IMG/VR virus record: IMGVR_UViG_3300035670_001326 | Location: 1-22,497 of that record | Strand: one strand, 5' to 3' | From: a virus | DNA length: 22,497 nt | Part shown: positions 7,535 to 22,497 of the stretch, piece by piece | How the letters are laid out: each line of letters starts with the position of its first letter | Numbering within the stretch: the first letter of the stretch is position 1 | Position numbers and translations under genes: made by a program | The notes under the pieces: generated by a model | The model's database searches: none | The model's input: the letters and a program-made list of their open reading frames with translations, nothing else | What the model was told of the DNA's origin: nothing

Positions 7535-7543
7535 TGTGATTCC

Positions 7544-9466: not shown

Positions 9467-9478
9467 AGTTAACCTTAC

Positions 9479-11011
9479 TTAAACAGTTCGTCCTGTCTTA
9501 AAGAATATGTCGATTTGTTGAATCGATAACGAGTCTGAGGTAATATCTGCCTGTATACCAACTTGGAATACTCTACCATTCCTACTTAATTGTGCTTTAA
9601 GTATGTTGATACCTTTAGTAGTGCTAAAGTATTCGTTGATGTTGTATTGAGCTACGTTGTACTCAGATTGTGTAGAACTAGGTATTGCTGTTAAATTAGC
9701 TATAGAATAGTCTGTGGAGTAATCAACACCCCACTTCAGTGTGATGTCAGTGCTAGCACCGCCAACGACAAGCATCGATAGCTTCTTAAGTATCTTTATG
9801 ATAGAAGCATTCGTAGCATCTAAGTAGGCTGTGAAGTACATAAACCTGAAAGAAGTACCATTGTCTGAATAGCTAGCACCATATTCACCAATGTATCCTT
9901 CTCTACTGATGTATAGTTTTCTATCTCTAGTTGATACAAAGGCTTTAGGATACAGTGTCCATGTTGTTGTTTTACAAGAACCATCCTGAAGTCTTGACTT
10001 TAGATCAAAACAATAAGACATTAATCGATTAGGTAGGCTTAAGACATAGAAAGCATTCTTCTCATCGTATACTGACTTAATAAGATCATTGTCATTATTA
10101 ATCTGTACATCGTTGATTAGATCGTTTCGGACATTCCTTGATACATCGAACAATGGTGGTGACTTCTCTTGGATGATACGTCCAAGGCTACGAACACCAG
10201 TGTCAGATAAGAAGAACAGATCTGCTCCAACATCCTGTACTGAGTCTCTAGCGATGCAACCAACACCATCAATGACTTCAACTAACTTTAGATCATTAGC
10301 AGGATCTACGTCAGCACCAGAATAGATGATGATTGTTTTCTTACAAAAGATAACTAAGTAGCCGTTAAAGCCTGCTAAGGCTACAATGCTGTCAGTACCG
10401 TTAGTAAGTACAGTTTCAATGCTTACAGAGCCACTAGCACCACCAGACCATTTAACACCTGACAAAGTATCTGACCACCACACAGTTGTCTTGTCTGTGG
10501 TTGTGTCAGCTACCCATAAACGACCATAAGCGGCTAAGACTTCGTTACCGAGCTGTACTGTTCCTGAATAGCCGCCATGCGCCGAAACCAATCCCCAAGT
10601 ATTAGCGGCATGATCATATAAGAGCGGATTATGTGCTCGTTGAAAGAAGTAGGTGTGATCATTGAAGCTAACAGCTTTCCAGTTTTGTGCAGTCCAAGTA
10701 GCGGATCCATCATATTTCTCAGTTAAGGTTGTTGTACCACTATAGATACGGTTGTTACCAATGCTGATGATCTCTGTTGTACCTGCTTTCTTAACTACTT
10801 CATGTAATAGTGTAGGCTCTGTGTTGTTGTATCCAGCAGAGGTATTGACGTTATCCCAACCAGCTCTAGCAGCAATACGACCATACTGATCAATAACAGC
10901 ATTGTCTGCCATTAAAGCAAATTCTTTAGGGATGGATACAGAGGCATCTTGAGTATTAAGACCGGCAAAGCCAGGAGCTACAATACTTACTGGTAGTAAA
11001 GGAGCAGACAT
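9479..11011 (-). CDS. Tail hub / packaged-DNA stabilization protein (P22 gp10-like)
   Basis: 510 residues from ATG at 11011. Seen: N-terminal PGFAGLNTQDASVSIPKEFA, then repeated beta-rich segments with FNDHTYFF, EVLAAYGRLWVADT, NGYLVIFCKKTIIIYSG and LMSYCFDLKSR. These suggest a beta-propeller-like plug, as in the P22 gp10 tail factor that caps the adaptor and seals the packaged DNA. An upstream in-frame TTG at 11026 would add five residues, but ATG 11011 follows GGGAG at eight bases and shares a base with the adaptor's stop (TAATG), so it is preferred. It directly follows the adaptor gene, the order seen in P22-like tail machines. The family assignment is by pattern and context. Confidence 0.75.
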   Translation of the reverse strand: MSAPLLPVSIVAPGFAGLNTQDASVSIPKEFALMADNAVIDQYGRIAARAGWDNVNTSAGYNNTEPTLLHEVVKKAGTTEIISIGNNRIYSGTTTLTEKYDGSATWTAQNWKAVSFNDHTYFFQRAHNPLLYDHAANTWGLVSAHGGYSGTVQLGNEVLAAYGRLWVADTTTDKTTVWWSDTLSGVKWSGGASGSVSIETVLTNGTDSIVALAGFNGYLVIFCKKTIIIYSGADVDPANDLKLVEVIDGVGCIARDSVQDVGADLFFLSDTGVRSLGRIIQEKSPPLFDVSRNVRNDLINDVQINNDNDLIKSVYDEKNAFYVLSLPNRLMSYCFDLKSRLQDGSCKTTTWTLYPKAFVSTRDRKLYISREGYIGEYGASYSDNGTSFRFMYFTAYLDATNASIIKILKKLSMLVVGGASTDITLKWGVDYSTDYSIANLTAIPSSTQSEYNVAQYNINEYFSTTKGINILKAQLSRNGRVFQVGIQADITSDSLSIQQIDIFFKTGRTV

Positions 11012-11664
11012 TAGGTCCACTCCCAAGTAGTTTCATCACCGTATCTTTCTGCTTCAATAGAGATATACGATGCTACTGCTTTACGATAAAGATCAGCTTG
11101 TTGATCACTTAAGCGACCACCGTCTTCACCACGTTCATTGATAGCACGTAGATAAGCACCTTGAATAACTAACTCTGACGGTACATAGACAACATCAGTG
11201 CCTGCTGACAAATCTGCTTGAGGAACAACACAGTCTACTTTAACAGTCAGTACTGATGTTGGTACAGGCCATAGATCAATTGTTAATACACCTGTAGCTG
11301 CTGTACTGTTACCAACAGAGAAGTACTGTGGATCTCCAGTAGTTGTTCCCTGAAGATTAGTCCACTCGTGCATCTGATACTGTGTAGCCTGAACTAAGTC
11401 TCTTTTTAGAGAAGGAATATAAATACTTAGAAGACGAGATCTAGGATTTGTACCAGGAATCTCATAGTTTTGTGTACCGTTAGCAGTAGAGATTGTCTTT
11501 GTGGTGCGTAGTACAGACCAGTTCCAAGCATCCTCTACTTCACGTTTAGCTTCGTTAACAAATTCACCAACAAGTTTAACGTAAGCGTTATCCGAGACAG
11601 AAACAGCTTCAACCTCTCTTACTCTACGTAAAACACCATTAACACAATCTAAGAATGTAGCCAT
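11011..11664 (-). CDS. Head-tail adaptor (P22 gp4 / T7 gp11-like)
   Basis: 217 residues. Seen: a helical start MATFLDCVNGVLRRVREVEA, then EFVNEAKREVEDAWNWSVLR, a pattern of adaptor proteins that dock below the portal. A beta-rich middle has PGTNPRSRLLSIYIPSLKRD and LTIDLWPVPTS. A helical end has ERGEDGGRLSDQQADLYRKA. Adaptors form a ring linking the portal to the tail nozzle. The stop overlaps the start of the gp10-like gene by one base, so the two tail-machine parts are coupled in translation. No lytic-enzyme motif, unlike P22 gp4, which also has muralytic activity. Confidence in the structural role is good; the exact family name is from memory. Confidence 0.75.
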   Translation of the reverse strand: MATFLDCVNGVLRRVREVEAVSVSDNAYVKLVGEFVNEAKREVEDAWNWSVLRTTKTISTANGTQNYEIPGTNPRSRLLSIYIPSLKRDLVQATQYQMHEWTNLQGTTTGDPQYFSVGNSTAATGVLTIDLWPVPTSVLTVKVDCVVPQADLSAGTDVVYVPSELVIQGAYLRAINERGEDGGRLSDQQADLYRKAVASYISIEAERYGDETTWEWT

Positions 11665-11669
11665 TTAAG

Positions 11670-11948
11670 TCACCACTTTTCCCTGTCAGACCAGTACGCA
11701 GCAGACATCTTACCTTTCTTAATGTTAGCAGCATGACGAGCCTTAAAAGATTCTCTACGTTTACGATATGAAGAAGACTCTCCTTCTTTCTTAGGAGAGC
11801 CTTGTACTCCTTGTTGACCGAAACGAATCAACTTAACTTGATCACCTTCTTTCGCAACAACAACGTGACTTTTAGTAGGATGGTCTGGTGTTTTTTTAGG
11901 ACGATTATATCCAGACACTCCTGCCCTTTCTAATCTAGGATCTTTCAT
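11670..11948 (-). CDS. Basic phage protein, DUF5872-like C-terminus
   Basis: 92 residues, rich in Lys and Arg. Seen: N-terminal RAGVSGYNRPKKTPDHPTKS, a short beta segment SHVVVAKEGDQVKLIRFGQQ, and a C-terminal FKARHAANIKKGKMSAAYW. The last motif recurs in many aquatic phages and, from memory, corresponds to the family listed as DUF5872. Role unknown; the charge suggests nucleic-acid binding, possibly in the virion. Its ATG overlaps the stop of the preceding small gene as ATGA. Confidence 0.75.
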   Translation of the reverse strand: MKDPRLERAGVSGYNRPKKTPDHPTKSHVVVAKEGDQVKLIRFGQQGVQGSPKKEGESSSYRKRRESFKARHAANIKKGKMSAAYWSDREKW

Positions 11949-12091
11949 TTCTTCTTTGCAGTTTTAGCTGCCTCCTTAAAAGCCTTATTAGTTGGAGCAC
12001 CTTTGCTTCCAGGCTTCCTCATCTTTTCTTTGGAGCCTTCAGCAATACGCTGTCTTTTAGCGTGAATGTTGGCGTATAGTCCTTGTTTCAT
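11945..12091 (-). CDS. Tiny Lys-rich phage protein (MKQGLYANIHAKR type)
   Basis: 48 residues, too short for most callers. Seen: MKQGLYANIHAKRQRIAEGS, then EKMRKPGSKGAPTNKAFKEA and a poly-Lys end. I recognise this as a recurrent small protein of aquatic phages with no assigned function. It starts four bases into the ATGA overlap with the upstream gene and ends in another ATGA with the next gene, so translation is probably reinitiated along the chain. Very basic; nucleic-acid binding is plausible but is inference. Confidence 0.8.
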   Translation of the reverse strand: MKQGLYANIHAKRQRIAEGSKEKMRKPGSKGAPTNKAFKEAAKTAKKK

Positions 12092-12246
12092 TTCTTTTTC
12101 TTAGGCTTAGTCATACCAGCCTCTGAAAGAGCAATAGCCACTGCTTGCTTACGTGACTTTACAACAGGACCACCTTTACCGCTATGTAGTGTTCCTTCTT
12201 TGTATTCACGCATAACTTTCTTTACTTTAGCAGGTTTCTGTTTCAT
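12088..12246 (-). CDS. Small basic DUF6496-like protein
   Basis: 52 residues. Seen: KVKKVMREYKEGTLHSGKGG followed by SRKQAVAIALSEAG and a Lys-only tail. This matches the pattern of the DUF6496 family as I remember it. The SRKQAVAIALSEA motif is highly characteristic and common in phages, and its function is not known. The gene overlaps both neighbours by ATGA. Reading-frame length and the conserved motif make it a real gene despite its size. Confidence 0.82.
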   Translation of the reverse strand: MKQKPAKVKKVMREYKEGTLHSGKGGPVVKSRKQAVAIALSEAGMTKPKKKK

Positions 12247-12395
12247 GAAGGATAACCCATCTTACGTTCTTTAGCCTTCATTGACTTTGATTCTTTCTTT
12301 TCATGCATCTTCTTTGCTTTCTTTGATGCATACTCTTCAGCAGCTTTTTTACCTTTAGCTGTGTAAGGAAACTTCTTATTCGCTACCATCGGCAT
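12243..12395 (-). CDS. Small Lys-rich phage protein
   Basis: 50 residues from ATG at 12395, starting MPMVANKKFPYTAKGKKAAE and ending KERKMGYPS. The open frame extends further up to 12470, but CAGGAG lies seven bases before ATG 12395 and the added residues do not resemble the conserved part. The middle is a highly charged helix of Lys, Glu and Ala. The motif FPYTAKGKKAAEEYAKK-like is common in phage small proteins. Its start overlaps the holin-like gene by 20 nt and its stop forms ATGA with the next gene. Function unknown; one of four consecutive small basic proteins. Confidence 0.78.
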   Translation of the reverse strand: MPMVANKKFPYTAKGKKAAEEYASKKAKKMHEKKESKSMKAKERKMGYPS

Positions 12396-12582
12396 TTGTT
12401 TTCTCCTGCTTACGTTTAAACATACATTGAATAGTATCTGTTTCCCATATCCTGATAGCAGTCCAAACAATCGTTAACACTGCTGCTATGGCTGGTAACA
12501 GTTCAGCTAAAGTCCCTACCACAGTAAGGATTGAAATAGCATCTCCTACTTGCTTAACTTGCTCATCAGCGTGGATAGCCAT
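12376..12582 (-). CDS. Small membrane protein, holin-like
   Basis: 68 residues. Seen: a short polar N-terminus MAIHADEQVKQVGDAIS, then a hydrophobic region at about residues 17-46 (ILTVVGTLAELLPAIAAVLT, then IVWTAIRIWETDTIQ) that could form one long or two short membrane helices, and a charged C-terminus KRKQEKTNADGSE. Proteins of this layout in podoviral tail-gene clusters are often annotated as class II holins. A dedicated 3TM holin next to the endolysin already exists, so this may be a second holin, an antiholin or a virion membrane factor; the sequence does not decide. It overlaps the next gene by 20 nt. Confidence 0.65.
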   Translation of the reverse strand: MAIHADEQVKQVGDAISILTVVGTLAELLPAIAAVLTIVWTAIRIWETDTIQCMFKRKQEKTNADGSE

Positions 12583-12584
12583 GA

Positions 12585-12827
12585 TTATTCACTCAAGGCT
12601 GCAATCTGTTGCTGTAACTGCTGAAGCTGAGTTAACAAAACCTCTTTCGTTGGTGTTATGGGTGTTATTGGTGTGGTTATTGGTTCTGCGAACACACCAT
12701 CTACATAGCTCCACCCTGGTCCTGCTTGTGGACAATCAATCCATCCATTCTGTTCAGCAAGTTCAGCATCAGCAACGACAACATTAACAACAACATTGTT
12801 CTCTATGATTGCGAATCGGTTGTTCAT
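12585..12827 (-). CDS. Small tail-fibre accessory protein
   Basis: About 80 residues from ATG 12827. Seen: MNNRFAIIENNVVVNVVVAD, then AEQNGWIDCPQAGPGWSYVD, a beta-rich pattern common in proteins encoded after phage tail fibres and annotated as fibre accessory or assembly proteins. A Pro/Thr repeat follows (PITTPITPITPT) and a Gln-rich helix closes the protein. The open frame reaches 12854 by a TTG and includes ATG 12839, but only ATG 12827 has a plausible ribosome site (GGTGA, five bases upstream). It lies immediately after the glycine-rich fibre gene, which supports a fibre-linked role. Chaperone versus virion component is undecided. Confidence 0.6.
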   Translation of the reverse strand: MNNRFAIIENNVVVNVVVADAELAEQNGWIDCPQAGPGWSYVDGVFAEPITTPITPITPTKEVLLTQLQQLQQQIAALSE

Positions 12828-12832
12828 TTTGA

Positions 12833-14203
12833 TCACCATGCGTAAACACGACAAAGACCACTACCACCAGCACCACCAGCACCACTTGCGACAGCAAAAC
12901 CAGCCCCAGCAGCAGCTCCACCACCACCCCCGCCACCAGCAGCTATGCCACCAGCACCACCTGCAACAGCAGTAGCCGCTGCTGAATTACTACCAGCACC
13001 ATCGCCACCACCACCGCCAAAGAAATTTGTGGATGATGCGGTATTTCTTGCAGCACCGCCTCCTGTTTCACCAGTGCGTGAACCACCAGCAGCACCGTTT
13101 GATGCTACACCGCCACCTGCTGTTTCGTTCCAACTACCTCCAGCACCTCCACCAGCACCTCCTTGATAGCTACAACCACCAGCCCTTGCTGTTTGATCTG
13201 CATTTGTTGCACCGCCAGCAGCACCGCCAAATCCGCTTGAGAACTGAGCTTGCGCTATATTCGCCCATGTTGTGACCAAAGAGCTAACAGAAGCCCCGCC
13301 AAACTGTCCTGAACCAACTGTAGTACCACTTGTTGTTATTTTAGGTGCGTTTCCTGTACCTAAGACACCACCGCCATCACCACCAAAAGTATTGATTGTA
13401 GCTCCTACCGTACTTACACCTTTTTGACCAGCACCGCCTCCATAGCTCGTTAAGTAAGAGCCGAATGTTGAATTACCTCCAGCCGTTCCATTTGCTCCGC
13501 CACCGTTGGTTGTTCCAGAAGCACCTCCTGATCCACCAGCACCTATAGTTACTGAAACGGTGGAAGGAAGATCAGAAGCTTTAAACAATCTAAAAGTATA
13601 AGCACCGCCTCCTCCACCGCCACCACCTCCAGCGTCACCAAGGCTTGGTCCTGAATTCTTATAAGAGAAACCGCTACCGCCTCCCCCTCCAGCACCCCAA
13701 CATTCAACCATCACAAATGTTTTTCCTGATGGTTTTGTCCATGTGCCTGAAGATGTGAACTCATCTATCTTAGGAGCAGGAGATGCAGCAGATTCCCAAA
13801 TAGAGCCTGTAGAAGTTAATACATTACCTGCTGTTCCTGCAGGTATAGTAATTAAAGACCCAGAACCATTACCTAACAATACAGTTCCTGCTGTAACAAA
13901 AGATAAACCAGTACCACCATCGCTGACAGCTATATCTGTTGCTAGATTTGATACAGTACCACCACTAAAACTAAAATTAGTTAATGTACCGCTTGTGGCA
14001 GTTAGGTTTGTAATTACAAAGTTTTCAGCAGTACCTGTTAAATTACTAACAGTACCAGAAGCAGCGTCTAACTTCGTAGTAATAGCCGTGGCAATATTAT
14101 TGTACTCAGTATCGTGCTCAGTACCTTTAATAATCTTGTTCGCATTACCACTCGGTAGCGAGTCTTTTGCAGCAAAGTTAGTTGTCTTTGTATAGTTAGA
14201 CAT
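12833..14203 (-). CDS. Tail fibre with glycine-rich receptor-binding-type C-terminus
   Basis: 456 residues from ATG at 14203, preceded by GAGG ten bases upstream; the in-frame TTG at 14212 is rejected because it abuts that site. N-terminal MSNYTKTTNFAAKDSLPSGN is typical of phage fibres. Next come Ser/Thr/Gly repeats and DIAVSDGGTGLSFVTAGTVL, a frequent fibre motif. From about residue 150 the segment FTSSGTWTKPSGKTFVMVEC WG leads into a very long glycine-rich domain (about 168-450) with runs of Gly broken by short loops. This resembles glycine-rich sandwich adhesins at phage fibre tips, known in T4-like adhesins, and is a likely host-recognition domain. Codons for the glycine runs create long false open frames on the plus strand. 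Only the last few residues (CRVYAW) leave the glycine pattern. Confidence 0.8.
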   Translation of the reverse strand: MSNYTKTTNFAAKDSLPSGNANKIIKGTEHDTEYNNIATAITTKLDAASGTVSNLTGTAENFVITNLTATSGTLTNFSFSGGTVSNLATDIAVSDGGTGLSFVTAGTVLLGNGSGSLITIPAGTAGNVLTSTGSIWESAASPAPKIDEFTSSGTWTKPSGKTFVMVECWGAGGGGGSGFSYKNSGPSLGDAGGGGGGGGGAYTFRLFKASDLPSTVSVTIGAGGSGGASGTTNGGGANGTAGGNSTFGSYLTSYGGGAGQKGVSTVGATINTFGGDGGGVLGTGNAPKITTSGTTVGSGQFGGASVSSLVTTWANIAQAQFSSGFGGAAGGATNADQTARAGGCSYQGGAGGGAGGSWNETAGGGVASNGAAGGSRTGETGGGAARNTASSTNFFGGGGGDGAGSNSAAATAVAGGAGGIAAGGGGGGGAAAGAGFAVASGAGGAGGSGLCRVYAW

Positions 14204-14208
14204 GCTAA

Positions 14209-14370
14209 TCAATCCTCTTTGGTGTTCTTACCCTTTTGGACCTTTTCAGTTTTCTTTTCTTCTTGTTCTTTTACTTCTTCGTAATCAGGATGTTTTCTCA
14301 TCTCAGCAATATCAAAGTCATACTCTACATTAAGTAAGTTGTTTGACCATATACATCTAAAAGTAACCAT
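14209..14370 (-). CDS. Small acidic/charged phage protein after the capsid terminator
   Basis: 53 residues, too short for most callers. Seen: MVTFRCIWSNNLLNVEYDFD, then IAEMRKHPDYEEV and a Lys/Glu-rich tail ending KNTKED. The start MVTFRCIWS with RKHPDYEEV is a pattern I know from phage hypothetical proteins located near capsid genes. The start is supported by GAGG seven bases upstream of ATG 14370. It lies between the terminator that follows the major capsid gene and the fibre gene. Function unknown. Confidence 0.78.
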   Translation of the reverse strand: MVTFRCIWSNNLLNVEYDFDIAEMRKHPDYEEVKEQEEKKTEKVQKGKNTKED

Positions 14371-14384
14371 TGTGACCTCTATAT

Positions 14385-14412
14385 AAAAGAGAAGCTGCCT
14401 AAGCAGCCTCTC
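14385..14412 (-). terminator. Rho-independent terminator after the major capsid gene
   Basis: Minus-strand reading: GAGAGGCTGC, loop TTAG, GCAGCTTCTC, then TTTT. The 10-bp stem has a single G.U pair and is followed by a short U run. It starts 14 bases after the capsid stop. A terminator here would raise the capsid transcript level relative to downstream genes, as T-phi does after gene 10 of T7. Confidence 0.85.
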
Positions 14413-14429
14413 TATAGTGCTTCTAATTA
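14407..14429 (-). promoter_or_regulatory. Possible T7-type RNA polymerase promoter
   Basis: Minus strand, starting at the capsid TAA: TAATTAGAAG then CACTATAGAGAG. It matches the T7 class III consensus at 17 of 23 positions, including TAAT and the whole CACTATAG block with the same spacing. The putative +1 G starts the first arm of the terminator hairpin, which conflicts with simple use as a promoter. The phage polymerase is not in this window and no sister copy was found here, so chance is quite possible. Confidence 0.25.
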
Positions 14430-15329
14430 GCTCGGAATGATCAGAGCAATACCAGCATCGTTACGCAACTCTGCAACACCGTAGAGGGTGTCAGCAGTGT
14501 AAAGCGTAGCTAGGTACTCTTGCTTGTACTGAGCCTGTGAGCGAACAGCCATCTGCTCTGCAAGGACCATTGCATCCTTGTGGAACATCAAGCAAGCACG
14601 AGGAGCCGTACCAGAAGAAGCGTAAGCAGTGTCAGCGTTGCTAGAAACAAACACTTTAACACCGTATACGTCACCAATCTGACCGTTACGGATGGTGTTG
14701 TTACCACCTTGCTCACCAACAAATGCTTGCTCAGTAAAGCGAGCAAGACCCATAAGAGTGTTACGAGCAACAGGAGGAATAACCAAGTAACGACCATCTT
14801 GAGGTACGTTAGCATCGTCAAGACGCTGAATCGTACGACGAATAGCAGCATCGGTCAATGCAGTTGCATTACCAGCACCAGCACCACCAACGAATGCAGT
14901 AGTACCATCACCACCGATATAGGCAGTGGTTGTACCTGACACACTATAGTCACCAGTAGCACCGGCAGCGTGTGATCCGTTGAAGAGACGACCGATCTGA
15001 ATAAGATCGCTGTCTACCTGAGTAGCAAGAGCGTAACCAGCGTCTTCCGTGTAGAAACGACGAAGTGATGCCAATGCCTGAACTTCTACGATGTCCTCGA
15101 TGAGACGTGAGTATTCGTAGTGCTTGTTGATGCTAACCTGTACTTCAGACTCTACGTTAGCCTGAATCGTAACAGCAGTGTTAGCTGCTTTAGCGAACGC
15201 TGCGCCACGAGTGGGGCTAGGAATGTGAAGCGTATCGCCTTTCTTACCACGCATCGTCATCTTGTTGACGAGGTTCGCCATAACAAGAGCTTTTTTGTAA
15301 GATGCAATTATTTCGTCTGACCAAATTTC
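14427..15329 (-). CDS. Major capsid protein, exon 2
   Basis: Encodes residues 25-324 of the spliced protein (300 residues, then TAA). It begins EIWSDEIIASYKKALVMANL, upstream of the ATG at 15281 that a gene caller would choose. Seen: GKKGDTLHIPSPTRG, the N-terminal region; LIEDIVEVQALASLRRFYTE; RTIQRLDDANVPQDGRYLVI with PPVARNTLMG; and NGQIGDVYGVKVFVSSN, all typical of a phage major capsid protein with an HK97-type fold. Starting at 15281 would lose 40 residues, including the first, conserved part of the coat protein. The frame is open upstream only to a few codons beyond the splice site. The scaffold gene lies directly upstream and a terminator directly downstream, the normal head-gene order. 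Confidence 0.92.
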   Translation of the reverse strand, partial: EIWSDEIIASYKKALVMANLVNKMTMRGKKGDTLHIPSPTRGAAFAKAANTAVTIQANVESEVQVSINKHYEYSRLIEDIVEVQALASLRRFYTEDAGYALATQVDSDLIQIGRLFNGSHAAGATGDYSVSGTTTAYIGGDGTTAFVGGAGAGNATALTDAAIRRTIQRLDDANVPQDGRYLVIPPVARNTLMGLARFTEQAFVGEQGGNNTIRNGQIGDVYGVKVFVSSNADTAYASSGTAPRACLMFHKDAMVLAEQMAVRSQAQYKQEYLATLYTADTLYGVAELRNDAGIALIIPS

Positions 15330-15361
15330 CCAATATCTAAAAAGATATTCCGACTATCGCA

Positions 15362-15805
15362 TCACAGAAGTCTACTTACTAACTCCTGTGCCTTCTCACT
15401 TAGTCTGTGCGGGTCACGCTTCATTGCTTTTAGCTCAGTTATAACAAGCTGTCTTGCTTCATCAGCGACCTGCTTGCCTTTTAAGTTATTCTCCATCCAC
15501 AGAAGAAATCTGGCTTGTTCATGTTTGATATATAGATGGTTTGCTATGTTTCGTAAGAAAGGACATACTTTACTGTATCCAACAAGTTCCCATGATACAG
15601 AATCTTGCCAGTTGTCATTCTTACTTTCACGGTAGGTTAAAAAACCACCATGATTTGTTTGCAACATATCAAGTAACATCTTAGAACTAACAGCCATTCC
15701 AATTCTAACTCTTGGTCTGACATAAATACCGTTTGTTACTTGAACATCTAGACAGCCTTCGCCATCAATCAAACCTGCGATATACTTCCAACTTAATCGC
15801 TTCAT
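15362..15805 (-). CDS. Intron-encoded LAGLIDADG homing endonuclease
   Basis: 147 residues. Cuts intronless capsid alleles so that the intron is copied in by repair. Seen: YIAGLIDGEGCL at residues 8-19, a LAGLIDADG motif with the acidic residues (D14, E16) expected to bind metal. Only one motif is present, so the enzyme should act as a dimer. The rest is about right for a single-motif enzyme: VRIGMAVSSKMLLDMLQ, then GGFLTYRESK, and KHEQARFLLWMENNLKGKQV. GGAGG sits four bases upstream of the ATG, but start and ribosome site fold into a hairpin. The gene is not in frame with exon 1, so it is translated on its own. Its C-terminal codons also encode part of the intron core, which limits how that end can change. 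Confidence 0.92.
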   Translation of the reverse strand: MKRLSWKYIAGLIDGEGCLDVQVTNGIYVRPRVRIGMAVSSKMLLDMLQTNHGGFLTYRESKNDNWQDSVSWELVGYSKVCPFLRNIANHLYIKHEQARFLLWMENNLKGKQVADEARQLVITELKAMKRDPHRLSEKAQELVSRLL

Positions 15806-15824
15806 ACACCCTCCACGGTGTGAA
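15801..15824 (-). promoter_or_regulatory. Hairpin hiding the endonuclease ribosome site
   Basis: Minus strand: TTCACACC, loop GTGGAG, then GGTGTATGAA. TTCA pairs with TGAA and CACC with GGTG, with two bases (TA) bulged. The loop holds part of GGAGG and the stem holds the AUG. T4 intron endonucleases are kept silent in early and unspliced transcripts by similar hairpins. The function here is inferred from that precedent. Confidence 0.55.
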
Positions 15825-15921
15825 CTGCATTGTTGGTAATGTCGTGTTCCCTCTGGTTAAGACACCTTACGTTCTTTCCCAGTTATTCAGAGAAGGTTTT
15901 ACATCCCCAAAATTATAGGCT

Positions 15922-15993
15922 AGGGATAAATTTATCCGCATTGGTCTTGTTAACAATGGAGCCACTTCCTCCAGGATATGCTGCTGATGCCAT
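15922..15993 (-). CDS. Major capsid protein, exon 1
   Basis: 24 codons: MASAAYPGGSGSIVNKTNAD then KFIP. The start ATG at 15993 has AAGGA seven bases upstream. Reading on without splicing gives S-L-stop, a 26-residue peptide, so the exon is meaningful only when joined to exon 2. The junction is CCT/GAA, giving FIP-EIWSDE, a sequence expected near the N-terminus of many phage coat proteins. The last exon bases AUCCCU also form the 5' strand of intron helix P1. Confidence 0.9.
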
Positions 15994-16016
15994 TTTAAAT
16001 TCCTTAAAAGTTTAGG

Positions 16017-16799
16017 TTATCTAACCCTATTCTCGTTATAGGCTGCCATGATGTCATCTTGTAAAGCCATATAACGCTCAGGGTCTGTCATTTGTAGTCG
16101 AATAAGATCTGCTCGACGATAAATTTTCTTGCTCGCTTCACCAGTAGCACCATCGACTGCTACCGTAGCTGCTTTCAGTGTTTGAGTACGTTGATCCTGT
16201 AGTTGCTGTGCTGCTTGCTGAACAGTTTCCTGCTTAGCTTTCTTCAATGCTTTGAAGTTAGACAACAACTCATTAGCGGAATCAAAGTCAAACTGTTTAT
16301 CTGCTGCTAGGTACAATCTTTGACGTACAGGTGACTCATTCACCCAGGTAGCAAACTCAGGATCAGCAATGACCTGTGTATAATCTGGATGCGATTGAGC
16401 TAGCCTGTTTGCAGTTTGCATCCTTGCCATTTGTGCCGCAGCTTGTTGAGCTTGGACAACTGCTGGATGGGATTCAACTGCTTTGTTAACTGCCTTAACA
16501 GGATCGGCAAAAAAGTCAGTATCATCTTCGATAGCTTTAACAGGTTGATCCTGCGGTGTGATTTGCCTCTTGATGAGTTCATCAGCTAACTTACGAACTT
16601 CTCCAACTTCTTGTGCTTGACGACCAATAAGCTTTTCAGCCTCTTGATGCATCTTTATGATGTCATCTAACGATTTACCCTTGTACTTCTCAGGGATCGT
16701 AGGTTCTTCCTGAGTTGGTGCTGTTTCAGTCTTAGCCTCTACAGCTTGAAATTCATCATTACCTACTTCTTCATCTAGAGATTCTACAAATTCAGCCAT
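16017..16799 (-). CDS. Capsid scaffolding protein
   Basis: 260 residues. Guides assembly of the procapsid and leaves before or during packaging. Seen: an acidic N-terminus (FVESLDEEVGNDEFQAVEAK), then PEKYKGKSLDDIIKMHQEAE and KLIGRQAQEVGEVRKLADEL, a helical motif characteristic of podoviral scaffold proteins. A long Gln/Ala-rich coiled coil runs through about residues 110-215, and a basic helical C-terminus ends DIMAAYNENRVR, the usual coat-binding end. No cysteines and no hydrophobic core. It lies immediately upstream of the MCP start and follows a good ribosome site (AGGAG, six bases before ATG). Confidence 0.88.
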   Translation of the reverse strand: MAEFVESLDEEVGNDEFQAVEAKTETAPTQEEPTIPEKYKGKSLDDIIKMHQEAEKLIGRQAQEVGEVRKLADELIKRQITPQDQPVKAIEDDTDFFADPVKAVNKAVESHPAVVQAQQAAAQMARMQTANRLAQSHPDYTQVIADPEFATWVNESPVRQRLYLAADKQFDFDSANELLSNFKALKKAKQETVQQAAQQLQDQRTQTLKAATVAVDGATGEASKKIYRRADLIRLQMTDPERYMALQDDIMAAYNENRVR

Positions 16800-16855
16800 C
16801 TGCTTCTCCTAGTCGGGTATAACCCAATTGTTAGGAATTAAAAGGAAAGTCTAAG

Positions 16856-17095
16856 TTATCCCTCATAGTAGGACTTAGACGCTGCTACGTTTGCTGCCTG
16901 TTCATGAACTGTTGCCCATCGATCATAAGCAGTTGGAAAAGCACCTGTGATGCCTTCCAATTTACTCCTAGGAGCTGCTAACTTACGATGTGCTAACAAA
17001 TCACAGTACGGGCACTGCACACTACTTACGGAACTATCAACGAAGTGTTCGCTTACGTGATGGTTCCCACATTCAAAATCATTTAGTATCCTCAT
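16856..17095 (-). CDS. Small zinc-ribbon protein, FmdB-like
   Basis: 79 residues. Seen: MRILNDFECGNHHVSEHFVD, with the first zinc ligand at C9 and nearby histidines, then VQCPYCDLLAHRKLAAPRSK, giving the second knuckle. The rest is helical and Ala-rich (AYDRWATVHEQAANVAASK). Proteins with an FmdB-type N-terminus are common next to phage head genes; role unknown. It overlaps the preceding gene by 17 nt and is followed by the scaffold gene, so it belongs to the head operon. Confidence 0.75.
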   Translation of the reverse strand: MRILNDFECGNHHVSEHFVDSSVSSVQCPYCDLLAHRKLAAPRSKLEGITGAFPTAYDRWATVHEQAANVAASKSYYEG

Positions 17096-17324
17096 TGACT
17101 AAATCCTCATAGGCTTTTTCCCAAACTTCATGCATTGTTAGGAGCCAATCTAAAGCTTTTAGTTGACCTTTACGTTCTTGTAGTTCTTCACCACTAGAGA
17201 TGGTGTTTATGTCCGCTACTGCATCTCGGTACTCTTTAGCGTCTTCTAATAAAGTTTTCCATCCAGGATGACTCATTAGGTCGAATCGCTCTTCGTAGTA
17301 CTTTAATAACTTTGTAGTATCCAT
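17079..17324 (-). CDS. Small helical phage protein, first gene of the head operon
   Basis: 81 residues, charged and helical: MDTTKLLKYYEERFDLMSHP, then GWKTLLEDAKEYRDAV and QLKALDWLLTMHEVWEKAYE. The pattern HPGW..LLEDA..Y is one I recall from phage hypothetical proteins near the scaffold. No cysteine and no membrane span. It has no Shine-Dalgarno sequence before ATG 17324. The -10 element ends only seven bases upstream, so its transcript probably starts at or next to the ATG and may be translated leaderless. Function unknown. Confidence 0.75.
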   Translation of the reverse strand: MDTTKLLKYYEERFDLMSHPGWKTLLEDAKEYRDAVADINTISSGEELQERKGQLKALDWLLTMHEVWEKAYEDLVNEDTK

Positions 17325-17331
17325 TGTTGTT

Positions 17332-17360
17332 ATTTTACCACATCTTTATGAATTTGTCAA
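17332..17360 (-). promoter_or_regulatory. Sigma70-type promoter for the head genes
   Basis: Minus strand: TTGACA (17360-17355), a 17-base spacer, TAAAAT (17337-17332). The -35 is a perfect consensus, the -10 matches 5 of 6, and the spacing is ideal. A second TTGACA lies 23 bases upstream at 17383-17378, overlapping the stop of the previous gene. The expected start site falls within a base or two of the ATG at 17324. Confidence 0.85.
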
Positions 17361-17379
17361 GCATGTTTCAATGCTTTTG

Positions 17380-17706
17380 TCAAGATATTTTAGAAATTTG
17401 TGATGTAGTCAACATAGTTACCTGATCAGTGGTTAAAGTAGCTACAATGTCAGGTAACTCTATAGCCTCTACAATCTGTAGTTCAGTCTGCCAAGCACTC
17501 TCTACCCAAGTCCTGCTCTCGTGCTGCCAGTTCCACTGATAACCTGCTCTGTCTGCTGGCTTAGGGTCTCTTACGACCCATTCCCAGTTTAACCATACAA
17601 GTTCCTTGCCTTCAGGGATGTCTGTCGGTGGTGATGGAGCCTGTTGCCAGCCCTCTGTGCCGTCTGTCTCTTGTGATGGGATAGACCCGTTTTTAGTCCA
17701 GTACAT
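17380..17706 (-). CDS. Tail-fibre accessory-type protein
   Basis: 108 residues. Starts MYWTKNGSIPSQETDGTEGW and continues with a Trp-rich middle (LVWLNWEWVVRDPKPADR, then YQWNWQHESRTWVES) and a Thr-rich end with LTTDQV and LTTSQI, a repeat type seen in phage fibre-linked proteins. Position directly after the LamG-domain protein suggests an assembly or accessory role. No family recognised with certainty; the fibre link rests on context and composition. Confidence 0.55.
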   Translation of the reverse strand: MYWTKNGSIPSQETDGTEGWQQAPSPPTDIPEGKELVWLNWEWVVRDPKPADRAGYQWNWQHESRTWVESAWQTELQIVEAIELPDIVATLTTDQVTMLTTSQISKIS

Positions 17707-17715
17707 ATCTATCCT

Positions 17716-19686
17716 TTAAAACGTGGGAAACGCTGCTGTTGGTGCGGTGAAGTTGCTGGTGTAGCGAGCGTAGTTAGTAACCCTAACATCCTGCATATAC
17801 GCATTAGCAACGCTTCCACCTGTTCTATCTGCACCAACGTACATTGAATTGGTTTGGTTAAAGTCTGTGCTTACCGTACCTGTCCCGTCATTGGTTCCGT
17901 TGATGTAAATCTTCGTCTGATTGGTGCTTGTGCCTTCCCTCACCACAGCAATATGCGTCCACGTTGTTGCGGACACCGTCCCTGTAGATGTGATAGTAGA
18001 AGAGCCGTATGTAAACACAACTTGATTACTGCTGTTAAGTGATACCAACCATCCTGTTGTGCCAGTACCTTTACCGACAAGACCGTAGGTTCCAGAGGAG
18101 TTTCTATAAACCCACAATTCAATCGTGAACTTGCCTGTGCCAATTCTTTGCGGAGGTTGATCCGGTATAAGCAGCCAGTCACCAGTACCGTCAAACGAAA
18201 TACTACTCCCACCCCACTTGCTCTGTATCGTACTTATCTGAGCATTGCCCACCGTCTCCAGATCATTCTTGCTAGTAGCATCGTAAATGCCACCATTAGT
18301 GTAGTTGAGGAGGAGGACTACATTTGTTGTTGATGTTGGTGGCTCAGTTGGAACTGAAATACTTTCAGCCGTTCCGTTTGTATATTTCAAGCCGCTAATA
18401 TAACCATTCATTACATTGGCTGCACCACGGTCAGCACCTATATAAAGCGTATCTGTTTGGTTAAAGTCTGTTGAAACAGTCGCCGTAGCAGAACTAACCC
18501 CATTTATATATAGTTGGAAACCATTGGTTGATGTATTAGTTCTTACCGCTGCAATATGCGTCCACGCAGACGCAGGTATTGTGGTTGTTGTATCAACGTT
18601 TGTTGTTCCGTGAGTAAACCTCAATATATTTGTTGAAGTTACCTGCAACACAAACCCTGTTGAAGCACCTCCTTTGGCTATAATTGAATGGGCGGCTCCA
18701 GAGGCATTTCTATAAATCCACCCTTGAATAGTAAAAGCGTTAGTACCGAACCTCAAGTTAGAATTATCCGCAACACTCAAATAATCCCCGCTCCCATCGA
18801 AATACCCTGACCCACCATAAGTCGCAGCAGACCAGCTTGAGGTGGGGTTGAATGGGGAGAAGGCTTGTACGGAGGGAGAGCCTGTGACGGTAAGTGCGTA
18901 GTTGTTAGTGCTGCTGTCTTTGAAGCGGTTGGATTGACATGTAAGAAGAACTGTCCCAGATACAGCGGTTAACGGTGAAGTTGGAACCGTGTAAGTTGAT
19001 CCGGTATATAAAGCCGTTCCTTTGATTATCCTAAGATTAGATATATACCCAGCTAAAGGGTCTGATGTAGTAATACCATTAGCCATAATACCCGGTCTAT
19101 TTGCCGGACATAAATAATTGGTTGAGTCCCCTGTATAGTCGTTACCAACTTTATTACCATTTAGATATAACTTTGTAGTAGTACCAGACCTTGCTAGAGC
19201 TATATGGTTCCACGCATTAACAGTTGGTACGGTGCTATTGGTAATCCTTACCGCAGAATTTGTAAAATATTGCAGTGTTGAATTGCTTACATATATTGCT
19301 GGATAAGCTCCTTGTGTTCCTGCTGGTCTAAAATCAAAAAAGTTATTGACAGTAGCAGTAAGCGATGTTGGATAAAGCCACATCTCAATAGTGAAATCAC
19401 CAGTACCCAATGCTAAATTTGAATCGCTTACTACATTTAAATACTGCCCACTTCCCGAAAAATAATTCCCCCACCCCGTCTGCGAGAACGGTGAGAACGT
19501 ACCTTGTGTGGTGTTGCCGTTGCGGGTGATGGTGAAGTTATTGGTAGAACCATCTAAGAACGTATTGTTCTGTGCGCCATTCGTGCCGTTGCCAGGAAGC
19601 AATAGCGTGGTGTATGGATAGTAAGGGTCTGCTGTGACTCCACCTGAAAAGATGGAGGCAATCATTGCTGTTAAGTTACCAGCCAT
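17716..19686 (-). CDS. Virion protein with three LamG/concanavalin-type domains
   Basis: 656 residues. Three copies of a beta-sandwich lectin-like domain (LamG type) are visible at about 45-245, 255-460 and 465-656. Shared motifs: DGSTNN or DSSTNN near the start, TGDFTIEMWLYP or TNAFTIQGWIYR or TGKFTIELWVYR, and TWTHIAVVR or AWNHIALAR. In copies 2 and 3, a strongly similar end STDFNQT..(L/M)Y(I/V)GADR is present. Domains of this type bind carbohydrate or host surface in many phages, and their number often varies by recombination. It lies between fibre-like genes upstream and a small accessory gene downstream, so a host-adhesion role on the virion is likely. Its stop is followed almost at once by the next gene. 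No catalytic motif. Confidence 0.82.
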   Translation of the reverse strand: MAGNLTAMIASIFSGGVTADPYYPYTTLLLPGNGTNGAQNNTFLDGSTNNFTITRNGNTTQGTFSPFSQTGWGNYFSGSGQYLNVVSDSNLALGTGDFTIEMWLYPTSLTATVNNFFDFRPAGTQGAYPAIYVSNSTLQYFTNSAVRITNSTVPTVNAWNHIALARSGTTTKLYLNGNKVGNDYTGDSTNYLCPANRPGIMANGITTSDPLAGYISNLRIIKGTALYTGSTYTVPTSPLTAVSGTVLLTCQSNRFKDSSTNNYALTVTGSPSVQAFSPFNPTSSWSAATYGGSGYFDGSGDYLSVADNSNLRFGTNAFTIQGWIYRNASGAAHSIIAKGGASTGFVLQVTSTNILRFTHGTTNVDTTTTIPASAWTHIAAVRTNTSTNGFQLYINGVSSATATVSTDFNQTDTLYIGADRGAANVMNGYISGLKYTNGTAESISVPTEPPTSTTNVVLLLNYTNGGIYDATSKNDLETVGNAQISTIQSKWGGSSISFDGTGDWLLIPDQPPQRIGTGKFTIELWVYRNSSGTYGLVGKGTGTTGWLVSLNSSNQVVFTYGSSTITSTGTVSATTWTHIAVVREGTSTNQTKIYINGTNDGTGTVSTDFNQTNSMYVGADRTGGSVANAYMQDVRVTNYARYTSNFTAPTAAFPTF

Positions 19687-19687
19687 A

Positions 19688-20125
19688 TCAAGTCACTCCT
19701 GGCCCAGTTACCCACCAAGTATCTGTAGCAACCTTGATAAGTGAAGCCATACCTTTAGTGGCTACTGTACGGTTTCCAGTGGCTCCGTTAGCTAGTTGAA
19801 ACGTTACACCAGCACCGGAGATAGTTAAGTTACCACTGTTGTTGTTCAACACCAAAATAACCGTACCCGTTGGAAACGCAACGGAAGCATTGGTAGGTAC
19901 TGTTAACGTTGCTGTAGAGCCGCTAGTAAAATACACATGATCACCAGCATCAGACAATACTAATGTATATGTAGAACCTGTTTGACTATTTTGAGGTGCT
20001 CCTAAATAACCTAATGTTTCATCAGCATCAGGTAAAGTTGTTGTACGACTACTATTTGTATTGGCAGATTGCAGCGTATGTGATCCTGTACCGCTGGAAT
20101 TGCCTTTAACAATAATGGAACTCAT
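19688..20125 (-). CDS. Small beta-rich fibre-like protein
   Basis: 145 residues from ATG 20125, which has AGGAG five bases upstream; the frame runs to a TTG at 20155 that overlaps the previous gene and lacks a site. Seen: MSSIIVKGNSSGTGSHTLQS, a Thr/Ser-rich stretch with TTTLPDADETLGYLG, then GDHVYFTSGSTATLTVPTNA and VILVLNNNSGNLTISGAGVT, and a hydrophobic end KVATDTWWVTGPGVT. Repeating short strands with Gly turns fit a trimeric fibre or spike end domain, and the DADETLGYL motif is one I know from fibre proteins of aquatic phages. Sits between two fibre-type genes; probably part of the same appendage. Confidence 0.65.
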   Translation of the reverse strand: MSSIIVKGNSSGTGSHTLQSANTNSSRTTTLPDADETLGYLGAPQNSQTGSTYTLVLSDAGDHVYFTSGSTATLTVPTNASVAFPTGTVILVLNNNSGNLTISGAGVTFQLANGATGNRTVATKGMASLIKVATDTWWVTGPGVT

Positions 20126-20133
20126 GTTTTCTC

Positions 20134-21327
20134 CTAAAAACCAAGAACAACCCAACGCTCATCTGTTCCTACAGTTACTGAGACATTTGAGTTAATTGTT
20201 ACAGGACCAACGCTTAATCCGTTGTAACCGTCTGTTATTGTATAGTTAGATGATATGGTTCGTAGGTTTTCTAATATTGTACTAGAACCTCCTCCACCAC
20301 CGCCGGTAGCAGTTAATGTACCGGATGACAAAGATAAACCAGAACCAACAGTAACATTACTAAAACCACCAGTACCGTTATTAGCTAGTAACTGTGCTGA
20401 AGTTCCTGTTGTTGCGGGAGCATAATCAGTTGATGCCGTAGCAGTTGTAAAACCAGAACCATTACCTTTTAGAATACCATTAAGTGTTGTGGTTACTGCT
20501 AATGTACCAGAGCTAGTTACTGGCGATCCTGAAACAGAAAAGCCAGTTGGCATCGTTAAAGCAACACTTGTTACTGTACCTGATCCACCACCGCCTGTAC
20601 CGTTTGCTGCTGATGTGATACGACCTTGTGCATCAACAGTGATATTAGCGTTAGTGTATGAACCTGCTGTAACCGCTGTGTTTGCTAAATTAAGGGTTCT
20701 GTTAGCGGACAAATCACCACCACCAGATAGGCCAGTACCAGCAGTGATAGTCCTTGACGTTGATACATAACCTGCTGTAGCGTGGTTACCCCATCCATAA
20801 GCAGTATTCCAATTACTTATGTTTGTAGATGTGATACCAGCAGCAGCACTAGCAGTAAATACAGGATCTGTTTCTGATGTTAGATAAGTTGATGTATCTA
20901 GTGTCCATGTATTTGTTGCTGTTTTCTTTAACAATCCAGAAGTACCAGCTAAGCCAGCAATTGCTGTTAAATCAGCATCTAAAGGTTGATAGGTTGTTGC
21001 TGCTGTTGCTGATGTAAGATAACCTGCTGAAGCATGATTACCCCAGCTATAAGCAGTATCCCAATCAGTTTGCTTTGATGTGGTCGGTATTCCATAACCA
21101 GCTGTATACGATACTGCTAACGTACCTGCTGATGTTACTGGTGATCCTGTTACAGTTAATCCAGTAGGTACTGACATAGCTACTGATGTTACTGTACCGT
21201 TACCTGACAAAGCAGCAATGTCGCTTAATGTTGTTTTTACCGTATTACCACTCTGTACAATAGGTACAACTTCAGTACCAGCCAGTGCTGATGCATTTGA
21301 TAGTGCTGAGATCTTTATATCAGCCAT
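20134..21327 (-). CDS. Tail-fibre-type repeat protein
   Basis: 397 residues. N-terminus MADIKISALSNASALAGTEV then VPIVQSGNTVKTTLSDIAAL, a common start of phage fibres and head fibres. Two internal repeats are visible: TDWDTAYSWGNHASAGYLTS at 87-106 against SNWNTAYGWGNHATAGYVST at 171-190, and VTSVAMSVPTGLTVTGSPVT at 46-65 against VTSVALTMPTGFSVSGSPVT at 252-271. The C-terminal motif NYTITDGYNGLSVGPVTINS is widely shared among aquatic phage fibres. Beta-structured and Gly/Ser/Thr-rich throughout, with no membrane span. The protein probably forms part of a trimeric fibre. It starts two bases after the collagen-repeat gene ends, so the two are likely co-translated. Confidence 0.75.
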   Translation of the reverse strand: MADIKISALSNASALAGTEVVPIVQSGNTVKTTLSDIAALSGNGTVTSVAMSVPTGLTVTGSPVTSAGTLAVSYTAGYGIPTTSKQTDWDTAYSWGNHASAGYLTSATAATTYQPLDADLTAIAGLAGTSGLLKKTATNTWTLDTSTYLTSETDPVFTASAAAGITSTNISNWNTAYGWGNHATAGYVSTSRTITAGTGLSGGGDLSANRTLNLANTAVTAGSYTNANITVDAQGRITSAANGTGGGGSGTVTSVALTMPTGFSVSGSPVTSSGTLAVTTTLNGILKGNGSGFTTATASTDYAPATTGTSAQLLANNGTGGFSNVTVGSGLSLSSGTLTATGGGGGGSSTILENLRTISSNYTITDGYNGLSVGPVTINSNVSVTVGTDERWVVLGF

Positions 21328-21329
21328 GT

Positions 21330-21890
21330 CTACTCCAAGATAATATAGTCACCAGCTTCTGTGGTGATGAGGTTACCGTTTTCAGTAGCTAAAACAGGAA
21401 CAACACTAATCCAATCAAGTAAGTAGTTAAACGATGCTTTCTTCCATTGTCCGTTTTGTCTGACAACAAAATATTCAGGTACTGTATCAGGAGATGCGTC
21501 AGGTAAACTATCTAGTCCAAACTGCTGTGTATTCTGAATGTATATGTTGTCTTTAGACTTAGAGGTCTGTGGTAACTCACCAGCACTGACTTCAATGCCA
21601 TTAGACAGTTTAAGTACCAGTGAGTTGTCAATGTCAATGTAAGCATCAACAACAGATACACCATCCTTACCTGCTTTACCGTCCTTACCATCTTTACCAT
21701 CAACACCATCTCTACCATCTTTTCCTGGTAGTCCGTCTTTACCAGGATTACCTTTTTCACCTCTTGGACCTTGTTTACCTTGTGGTCCTTCCAGCTTAAT
21801 GATGGTATCTGCTTTGGAGTCTAACTCACTTACTTTCTTCTTTAGCTTACCAACAACAGCAGCGAGCTGTAGTAGCTTTTCCTCATCCAT
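21330..21890 (-). CDS. Collagen-repeat virion protein
   Basis: 186 residues. Seen: an N-terminal helix, likely a coiled-coil trimeriser (MDEEKLLQLAAVVGKLKKKV), then 15 uninterrupted Gly-X-Y triplets from residue 35 to 79 (GPQGKQGPRGEKGNPGKDG..., many with Lys and Asp). A globular tail follows with ISVVPVLATENGNLITTEAG at the end. Collagen-like triplets in phages form trimeric rods in fibres or surface spikes. The protein lies directly between the portal and a fibre-type protein, so it is likely a connector or shaft of the same appendage. The Gly-X-Y array is encoded by a non-identical DNA repeat at about 21654-21788. Confidence 0.85.
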   Translation of the reverse strand: MDEEKLLQLAAVVGKLKKKVSELDSKADTIIKLEGPQGKQGPRGEKGNPGKDGLPGKDGRDGVDGKDGKDGKAGKDGVSVVDAYIDIDNSLVLKLSNGIEVSAGELPQTSKSKDNIYIQNTQQFGLDSLPDASPDTVPEYFVVRQNGQWKKASFNYLLDWISVVPVLATENGNLITTEAGDYIILE

Positions 21891-21892
21891 GA

Positions 21893-22497
21893 TTACTCAC
21901 CAAGAGCGTCACTGAATTGCTTATCTACTTGCTTTTTAGCCTCCATCTGCATCTTAGCTATGTTTTCGTTACTCTTGATGTCTTCTTCCTTCAACATCAA
22001 CTCAGCAATCTTAATCCTACGTTCAAACTCACGCTGTGCTGTGTCATCGTTGTTAGGAAGGTTCTGAGTAGCTGCATTAACAATCTTTGCTCTGGTTTCT
22101 TCAGGCATTAATTGAGCCTCTACAACGGCTTTCTGAGCCTCAGCAGCAGCTTTCTGTGCTCTAGCTTGTTTTTCCTGCACTGTTGCCTGTGCATCCGCTA
22201 ATTGAAGCTGTGCAGCCTGTTGTTGTACCTGTTGTTGCTCAGGATTAGGCTGTGTTAGCTGCTGAAGTTGCTGTAATAGGCTTTCTCTGTTAGGTAATGA
22301 TGAGTATTCAACAATACCTTGTAGCAATAACGGTACAATAGGACTATTTGGACCTAAAGTAGACATCATCGCCATCATTTGAGCCTGTTCAAACTCTCTA
22401 GCAACCATACCTAGCGTACCTGTAGGTATAAATTCAAAGTCTTTTACAGGATAACGCTCTGGAGAGAACTGCATATACCGCCATGCAGCCTTTTGAA
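21893..22497 (-). CDS. Portal protein, C-terminal part (partial)
   Basis: The frame is open to the window edge; 201 residues are visible, and the ATG at 22474 is internal (QKAAWRYMQFSPERYPVK). Seen: PTGTLGMVAREFEQAQMMAM, then LGPNSPIVPLLLQGIVEYSS and LPNRESLLQQLQQL, the C-terminal part of P22-type portal proteins as I know them. A long Gln/Ala/Lys/Glu coiled coil follows (about the last 120 residues), corresponding to the barrel-like helical end of this portal type. The portal forms the 12-fold ring through which DNA enters the head. It is the first head gene of this strand; the terminase lies presumably beyond the window. Confidence 0.8.
   Translation of the reverse strand, partial: QKAAWRYMQFSPERYPVKDFEFIPTGTLGMVAREFEQAQMMAMMSTLGPNSPIVPLLLQGIVEYSSLPNRESLLQQLQQLTQPNPEQQQVQQQAAQLQLADAQATVQEKQARAQKAAAEAQKAVVEAQLMPEETRAKIVNAATQNLPNNDDTAQREFERRIKIAELMLKEEDIKSNENIAKMQMEAKKQVDKQFSDALGE

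Follow-up and report, generated by a model that had tools for sequence, protein, structure and literature searches.

Why should a block of five fibre-type genes lie between the portal gene and the head genes of a phage? In the stretch of DNA analysed here (the window: 22,497 nucleotides, IMG/VR virus record IMGVR_UViG_3300035670_001326), such a module occupies positions 17380-21890 on the minus strand, between the portal gene and the g81-g79-scaffold-major capsid protein (MCP) genes. A sequence-only reading had proposed that it encodes a capsid-attached fibre or is a swapped host-range cassette. The evidence presented below makes it likely that the module is a receptor-binding tail-fibre cassette of a podovirus, which occupies one of the two addresses open to it, on either side of a self-contained head unit.

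The gene order on the minus strand is: portal C-terminus, gCol, gFib2, gFib3, the triple-LamG gene, gAcc, g81, g79, the scaffold-position gene, a LAGLIDADG endonuclease, MCP, hyp53, a glycine-rich fibre, g89, several small genes, the adaptor, the nozzle-like g515, and three long genes at the position of internal virion proteins. The fibre genes that had been named between portal and scaffold were all found on the minus strand at the coordinates given here, as was the second, glycine-rich fibre downstream of the MCP gene. The main features are the following.

21893-22474, minus strand: portal gene, C-terminal 193 aa (PHROG 1216/156 portal; Pfam P22_portal above cut-off); left flank and border of slot 1
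21330-21890, minus strand: gCol, with an N-terminal helix, a GXY collagen stretch and a C-terminal domain; slot-1 anchor (Pfam Collagen)
20134-21327, minus strand: gFib2, a repeat shaft; the first ~103 aa are conserved along with portal/gCol, the remainder is variable (tail-fibre PHROG 9729)
19688-20155, minus strand: gFib3, a connector with a C-terminal knob-like domain (PHROG 8780, minor tail)
17716-19686, minus strand: tip gene, a docking tag and three hypervariable LamG cores between conserved linkers (Pfam Laminin_G_3, three times)
17380-17706, minus strand: gAcc, small accessory protein that accompanies the LamG tip and may be its chaperone or cofactor (small beta domain in the AF2 model)
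17332-17360, minus strand: head-unit promoter, right border of slot 1 (sigma-70 match 11/12, kept in close relatives with either gene order)
17079-17324, minus strand: g81, first head-unit gene (core family, 152 proteins of the fetched loci)
16856-17095, minus strand: g79, small Cys-containing head-unit protein (core family)
16017-16799, minus strand: scaffold-position protein, before the MCP (PHROG 13678/479, unknown-function; core family)
15362-15805, minus strand: free-standing LAGLIDADG/HNH homing endonuclease within the head unit (PHROG 5046; Pfam LAGLIDADG_1)
14427-15281, minus strand: MCP (PHROG 267; Pfam Phage_capsid_2)
14388-14413, minus strand: terminator-like stem-loop/T-run after the MCP, end of the head unit (position conserved across relatives)
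12833-14212, minus strand: slot-2 fibre, an N-terminal NYTK anchor fused to a glycine-rich tip (PHROG 863; Gly_rich_2 just under cut-off)
12585-12854, minus strand: g89, accessory protein behind the glycine-rich tip (PHROG 14370)

The head-tail genes are of the P22/SU10-like kind: P22_portal, Phage_capsid_2 and SU10_adaptor are present in the window, whose portal is of P22/SU10 type, and the complete portal of the relative L004 matches SU10_portal. The entire 661-aa portal and the terminase are supplied by contig L084, which is 100% identical to the window across 6.8 kb. The scaffold is named by its position, since the gene matches only weak PHROGs of unknown function. gCol starts 2 nt past the portal stop codon, so the fibre module is probably transcribed by read-through out of the portal gene; the true start of gFib3 is probably the ATG at 20125.

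The window derives from an uncultured lake podovirus, of a group that is abundant in IMG/VR: a search with the MCP returned at least 600 matches. The listed matches of MCP, scaffold, portal and gAcc searches were reduced to about 290 non-redundant loci, which were annotated by iterated profiles. No near DNA relatives of the window were found among sequenced phages. Named phages are distant; the MCP is about 30% identical to those of Pf-WMP3-type cyanophages, and the closest cultured relatives of the portal are HMO-2011-type marine podoviruses (22-26% identity). A search for the host through genome contigs gave just two MAG contigs, from different phyla (67% and 52% identical), and was uninformative.

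The head unit, made up of g81, g79, scaffold and MCP, lies between a promoter of its own and the stem-loop behind the MCP gene. The promoter reads TTGACA-17 nt-(TG)TAAAAT at 17360-17332, with an extended -10 element. Matches of 9/12 occur no more often than chance predicts (10 found against 16 expected); nearly all near relatives, in either gene order, keep the 11/12 match immediately upstream of g81, and this bears out the earlier suggestion that the head operon restarts with its own promoter. As single matches the promoter and the stem-loop are weak, and both are conserved in place whichever side carries the fibres. Endonuclease genes recur in and around the unit. A LAGLIDADG reading frame lies between scaffold and MCP in 16 of the listed loci, the window included, and 23 loci of relatives have an antisense endonuclease-VII-type reading frame placed precisely where fibre and head genes meet, although contigs of one genome may be repeated in this count. 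A seemingly noncoding stretch of ~650 nt before g81 in L004, L035, L042 and L096-L098 was considered as a possible RNA; it had no match in Rfam and contains an antisense HTH/endonuclease-VII-type reading frame.

Comparison of the relatives defines two fibre addresses flanking the head unit: slot 1, between the portal gene and the promoter, and slot 2, after the MCP gene. In type A genomes (the window, L004, L006, L009, L015, L031, L042, L050, L058 and others) the fibres are in slot 1, and slot 2 holds a second, smaller fibre or small genes alone. In type B genomes (L016-L025, L093, L153, L204, L264 and others) the portal gene abuts g81, at about 20-95 nt, and the fibres are located in slot 2 wherever the contig covers it. 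L016-L025 have MCPs 95-96% identical to that of the window; here the portal and g81 are separated by 36-37 nt, and 7.7-9 kb of fibre genes follow the MCP gene where the contig reaches. The same genes are therefore not in the same place in all relatives: at 95-96% MCP identity the fibre block is found at the opposite flank of the head genes. The length of the portal C-terminus was considered as a correlate of the slot state and dropped, as the lengths seen were inconsistent.

The portal-head junction is covered in 101 of the listed loci, being short in 37 and long in 64. Slot 1 was scored as empty below 700 bp and as full at 700 bp or more, and slot 2 was divided at 4 kb. Both slots could be measured in 28 unique genomes among the listed loci: all nine with a slot 1 below 700 bp have a slot 2 of at least 4 kb, and all 19 with a slot 1 of 700 bp or more have a slot 2 below 4 kb (Fisher 1.4e-7, a test that ignores kinship). 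Phylogenetically independent pairs agree with this reciprocity in four of four cases, too few for significance; it rests on the 28 unique genomes and on few independent events. A tree built from the head-unit proteins (69 rows) calls for no fewer than seven changes in the occupancy of slot 1, each forced by supported (starred) branches. Misassembly of metagenome reads could in principle create alternative gene orders, and the near relatives are all metagenome contigs; the recurrence of identical junctions across contigs of different samples, including the 37-nt portal-g81 junction in at least eight loci, makes this explanation exceedingly improbable.

The borders of the exchanged segment can be located by alignment. 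Breakpoints had been anticipated at 17380 and 21890. Against close type A relatives, the window is 88-93% identical from the portal gene to 21019, inside gFib2, and the similarity resumes from 17342-17396 onward. This gap places the right border at the head promoter, as anticipated, and the left border 0.9 kb within the module rather than at 21890: the portal gene keeps gCol and the N-terminal ~103 aa of gFib2 beside it. Further breakpoints fall in the LamG linkers. In one relative (L002), identity to the window is 99.4% over positions 8140-18315 and is lost beyond that point, within the LamG gene.

Sequences have also passed between the two slots. The cassette at the end of slot 1 in L037 is 96.7% identical over 846 nt to slot 2 of L097, while the scaffold and MCP of the two are 77% and 75% identical; slot 1 of L042 and slot 2 of L093 share 94.3% over 314 nt on a backbone of 71-77%; and gAcc of the window is 89.6% identical to that of the type B locus L231. 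The tips themselves change places: the window has LamG in slot 1 and the glycine-rich tip in slot 2, and L006 has the reverse, on a backbone that is 88-93% identical. Three N-terminal tags (M[AST]G-L.., MPxLxTxGAA.R.GF and GVWSLxEQ..GIWP) each occur on both LamG and glycine-rich tips, with LamG/glycine-rich counts, in that order, of 32/11, 8/1 and 8/6, as scored by hand-made pattern expressions and with the 8/1 class being thin. The fibre locus could be imagined to have moved once, long ago, leaving an ordinary lineage-specific gene order and no active exchange, and each gene order does form clades of several members. With at least seven changes on the tree, 94-97% identical cassettes on 71-77% identical backbones, and near-identity over 10 kb that breaks off within the LamG gene of L002, a single move is very unlikely. 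The proposal of a swapped host-range cassette is, as far as a swapped fibre cassette is concerned, well supported by the relocated block, by cross-slot cassettes that exceed the identity of their backbones, and by the mosaic lectin cores described below.

The fibre appears to be built in the order of its genes: an anchor (gCol with the N-terminus of gFib2) would be followed by a shaft (gFib2), a connector (gFib3), a tip (tag and triple LamG) and an accessory protein (gAcc). gCol scores 35.3 bits against Pfam Collagen (PF01391; cut-off 27.2) and belongs to that family. Among the listed loci it is present in 56 of 57 with an occupied slot 1 and in none of the 37 with an empty one, and it is the leading gene in 47 of 48 unique occupied slots, a derived count; ten whole type B records, with slot 1 empty, contain no collagen domain. 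It is fused to the fibre shaft in distant kin and is a separate gene in near kin; an intermediate, L100, has gCol alone in slot 1, and gCol may thus be an independent structural protein. The slot-2 protein of near type B relatives has a C-terminal shaft homologous to that of the fused type A fibre, and the gFib3 family occurs in both slots. The shaft homology indicates that shaft, connector and tip are common to the two types and that the anchor differs, being collagen in slot 1 and KGSST or YRG in slot 2 of type B. A weak PDB match of gFib2 to a tail collar fibre (9d93, E=0.0064) was not relied on.

In 82 of the 84 cases that allow a test, the gene directly before gAcc is a LamG gene; this holds for both slots as well as for other phages. 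Its AF2 model has a good fold over residues 1-70 and a short, poorly predicted C-terminus. It may be a chaperone or a cofactor of the LamG tip; assignment to a known chaperone was rejected, with no Foldseek match at E<=0.001 and no PDB profile match. The gAcc tree has too few columns for firm event counts. The accessory protein g89 comes after glycine-rich tips in L013, L015, L024, L031 and L049.

Where on the particle would this fibre be attached? Capsid fibres such as phi29 gp8.5 and SPP1 gp12 are attached to the capsid lattice, and SPP1 gp12 is collagen-like. The slot-1 module might likewise be a head fibre with gCol docking on the MCP lattice, leaving the slot-2 fibre as the tail fibre: the module adjoins the head genes, its collagen-like start resembles the known capsid collagen fibres, and gCol is a separate gene in near kin that can remain alone in slot 1. 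We consider this unlikely, as relatives with a 96% identical MCP lack gCol, the C-terminal partners of gCol are homologous to the slot-2 shaft of those same relatives, and tips swap freely between the slots. The LamG+gAcc pair, moreover, recurs in unrelated phages: the genes before it encode a collagen fibre and a tail-fibre protein of 1182 aa in L234, and in L269 they are a long fibre-like gene and the gene of a probable ejected virion protein; this company of tail-fibre genes argues for the tail and not the capsid. The capsid-attached fibre of the sequence-only reading thus received no positive support, and the cassette fibre would sit on the tail.

A tail role for the NYTK anchor is supported by its placement. 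In genomes that allow it to be placed, this domain, which has no match in the PDB, occurs once: it is fused to the slot-2 fibre in 24 unique cases and forms a gene directly after the nozzle g515 in 43 unique cases; one locus has it at both positions. NYTK is a third mobile piece.

The tip scores 186.5 bits against Laminin_G_3 (PF13385; cut-off 27.6) in three stretches and belongs to that family. Its tag (aa 1-22) is followed by cores at aa ~80-235, 305-440 and 505-630, separated by linkers at aa 26-75, 270-300 and 451-500. Among 59 triple-LamG proteins the mean pairwise identity is 78-89% in the linkers, in contrast with 29-33% in the cores, where 25-residue blocks show 16-53% mean column identity and are hypervariable throughout. 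The identities of the three cores are uncorrelated (Spearman 0.02, -0.06 and 0.06); mosaic pairs are the stronger evidence, since most pairs sit near background. In 61 pairs with a third core at least 85% identical, core 1 is also common to two and core 2 to two, and the 59 proteins contain 58 combinations of cores. L244 and L269, which have unrelated backbones, are 88-100% identical over codons 36-276, mostly 29-61% identical to codon ~490, and 87-100% identical thereafter, indicating that the middle core alone was exchanged. The three cores assort independently between conserved linkers. A diversity-generating retroelement was considered and rejected, as no reverse transcriptase was found and the variation comes in blocks; RVT_1 was absent from the records of 12 relatives, the window genome itself being incomplete.

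LamG cores may bind cell-surface glycans and so set the host range. Alternatively, host range could be set by cutting of the surface polysaccharide, the LamG/ConA-like tip being an enzyme or a capsule-degrading spike; the Pfam model does span lectins and glucanases. The absence of any conserved catalytic block in the hypervariable cores and the best PDB match, a 227-aa S-layer domain-containing protein, render an enzyme quite improbable, and a binding tip is preferred.

The exchange of blocks, the exchange of tips between addresses, the reciprocal occupancy and the independent exchange of cores are all observed among these genomes. They could arise by recombination between co-infecting phages at conserved islands, namely the portal/gCol/gFib2 start, the LamG linkers and the gAcc/head-promoter region. 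Homing endonucleases encoded as free-standing genes close to the border adjoin the exchange points and may stimulate this recombination. Models of reverse transcriptase, RecT and Erf had no match in the near relatives tested, and YqaJ and Erf recombination genes are present in some distant members only. More tentatively, there may be two mutually exclusive fibre systems, one with a collagen anchor in slot 1 and one with a KGSST or YRG anchor in slot 2, which dock at different places on the virion and share shaft, connector and interchangeable tips. A move of the block would then switch the site of the lectin on the particle, and specificity would be set combinatorially by three LamG cores, reassorted independently and passed among unrelated phages.

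Among known systems, the gp38 adhesins of T-even phages (T2/S16/PP01), at the tail-fibre tip, have hypervariable receptor-binding segments between conserved glycine-rich motifs (PMC12892980), an alternation similar to that of the window tip (pairwise identity 0.78-0.89 in linkers, 0.29-0.33 in cores). However, gp38 is a poly-glycine II sandwich in which loops are exchanged, whereas here three whole domains of LamG fold are exchanged and the cassette also changes its genomic address; no gp38 family was present among the PHROG, Pfam and PDB matches of the window, and the likeness is one of analogy. In cyanophage Pam3, the tail fibre gp24 has an N-terminal docking part and a glycine-rich receptor domain, and gp25 is a Tfa-type chaperone with an N-terminal beta domain and a helical C-terminus (PMC9608196). 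gAcc has a similar layout in its AF2 model and is likewise encoded directly after its fibre, but has no sequence or fold match to any solved chaperone.

Against the HMO-2011 type (HMO-2011, CRP roseophages, HTVC pelagiphages), identity is 22-26% in the portal and 24-29% in the nozzle, in fragments only, and there is no nucleotide similarity to the window. In CRP-3, too, portal and coat are separated by a large gene; it carries a cell-wall hydrolase domain and is not a recognised fibre, and was rejected as a homologous one. Pf-WMP3-type cyanophages (Saffermanviridae) share the 30% identical MCP but have portal, scaffold and MCP adjacent, with the fibre gene well away from them, at the far end of their structural operon. 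The uncultured Dishui Lake phage DSL-LC04 combines LamG (45% over 97%) and gAcc (65%) with a 2OG oxygenase in a single fibre cassette, although its backbone is unrelated and the cassette lies between the adaptor gene and the lysis genes.

Fibre modularity, as in gp38 and Pam3, and the exchange of fibre tips are already known. In the limited set of open-access papers searched, no description was found of a fibre block that moves as a whole, repeatedly and reciprocally, between two fixed addresses on either side of an insulated head operon, or of a lectin whose three LamG cores shuffle independently between conserved linkers; both appear to be new. If the cores set the host range, the many metagenomic sequences would form a readable code of which phage infects which lake bacterium. 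Phage fibres have natural joints, marked by the conserved linkers and tags. This phage family appears to swap and move its host-range parts as units.

Two kinds of endonuclease ORF recur at fixed places in or beside the head unit (g81-g79-scaffold-MCP); L-numbers denote contigs of relatives from IMG/VR, each with its own coordinates.

L098 2668-3288 (-): antisense ORF, GcrA-like/HTH N-terminus and endonuclease-VII/HNH C-terminus
L004, L009, L035, L037, L039, L042, L096, L097: the same type of antisense ORF, immediately 5' of g81
Window 16856-17324: g81 and g79, first genes of the head unit, conserved among relatives
Window 15362-15805: free-standing LAGLIDADG/HNH-type homing endonuclease, scaffold/MCP gap

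Among the matches listed, the antisense ORF lies precisely on the fibre/head border in 23 loci, a count in which one genome may appear more than once; the window does not carry it. Neither g81 nor g79, whose cysteine-containing portion is N-terminal, matched a known family. The LAGLIDADG/HNH-type ORF occupies the identical position in 16 loci among the matches listed, and is missing from other loci whose MCP is near-identical.

Further features occur in the relatives and in the window.

L015 4657-5274; L037 2-532; L097 12862-13464; L305 5324-5944: 2OG-Fe(II) oxygenase within the fibre cassette
L031 15764-15976; L098 12529-12765; L050 14082-14357: short stand-alone NYTK-domain protein, immediately 3' of the nozzle gene (g515)
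L001 4198-5508; L032 3456-4062: rearranged stretch 3' of the slot-2 fibre (after MCP)
Window 615-2513 (+): class II (B12-dependent) ribonucleotide reductase gene

The cassette-borne oxygenase accompanies Gly-rich or LamG tips in these four loci, and possibly modifies the fibre or the host surface. The NYTK anchor domain, fused to the slot-2 fibre in the window, is a separate short protein in L031, L098 and L050, where it looks like a tail adaptor peptide. In L001 and L032 the slot-2 fibre is followed directly by small genes, together with a gene related to g154 of the lysis region, an order that differs from the window's and is another rearrangement. The window's structural operon and its reductase gene are convergent, on opposite strands. 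In L246, a different podovirus whose portal is only distantly related, fibre genes and a LamG tip (2762-9992) likewise lie 3' of the portal gene, a possible independent instance of the slot-1 arrangement (portal to head promoter).
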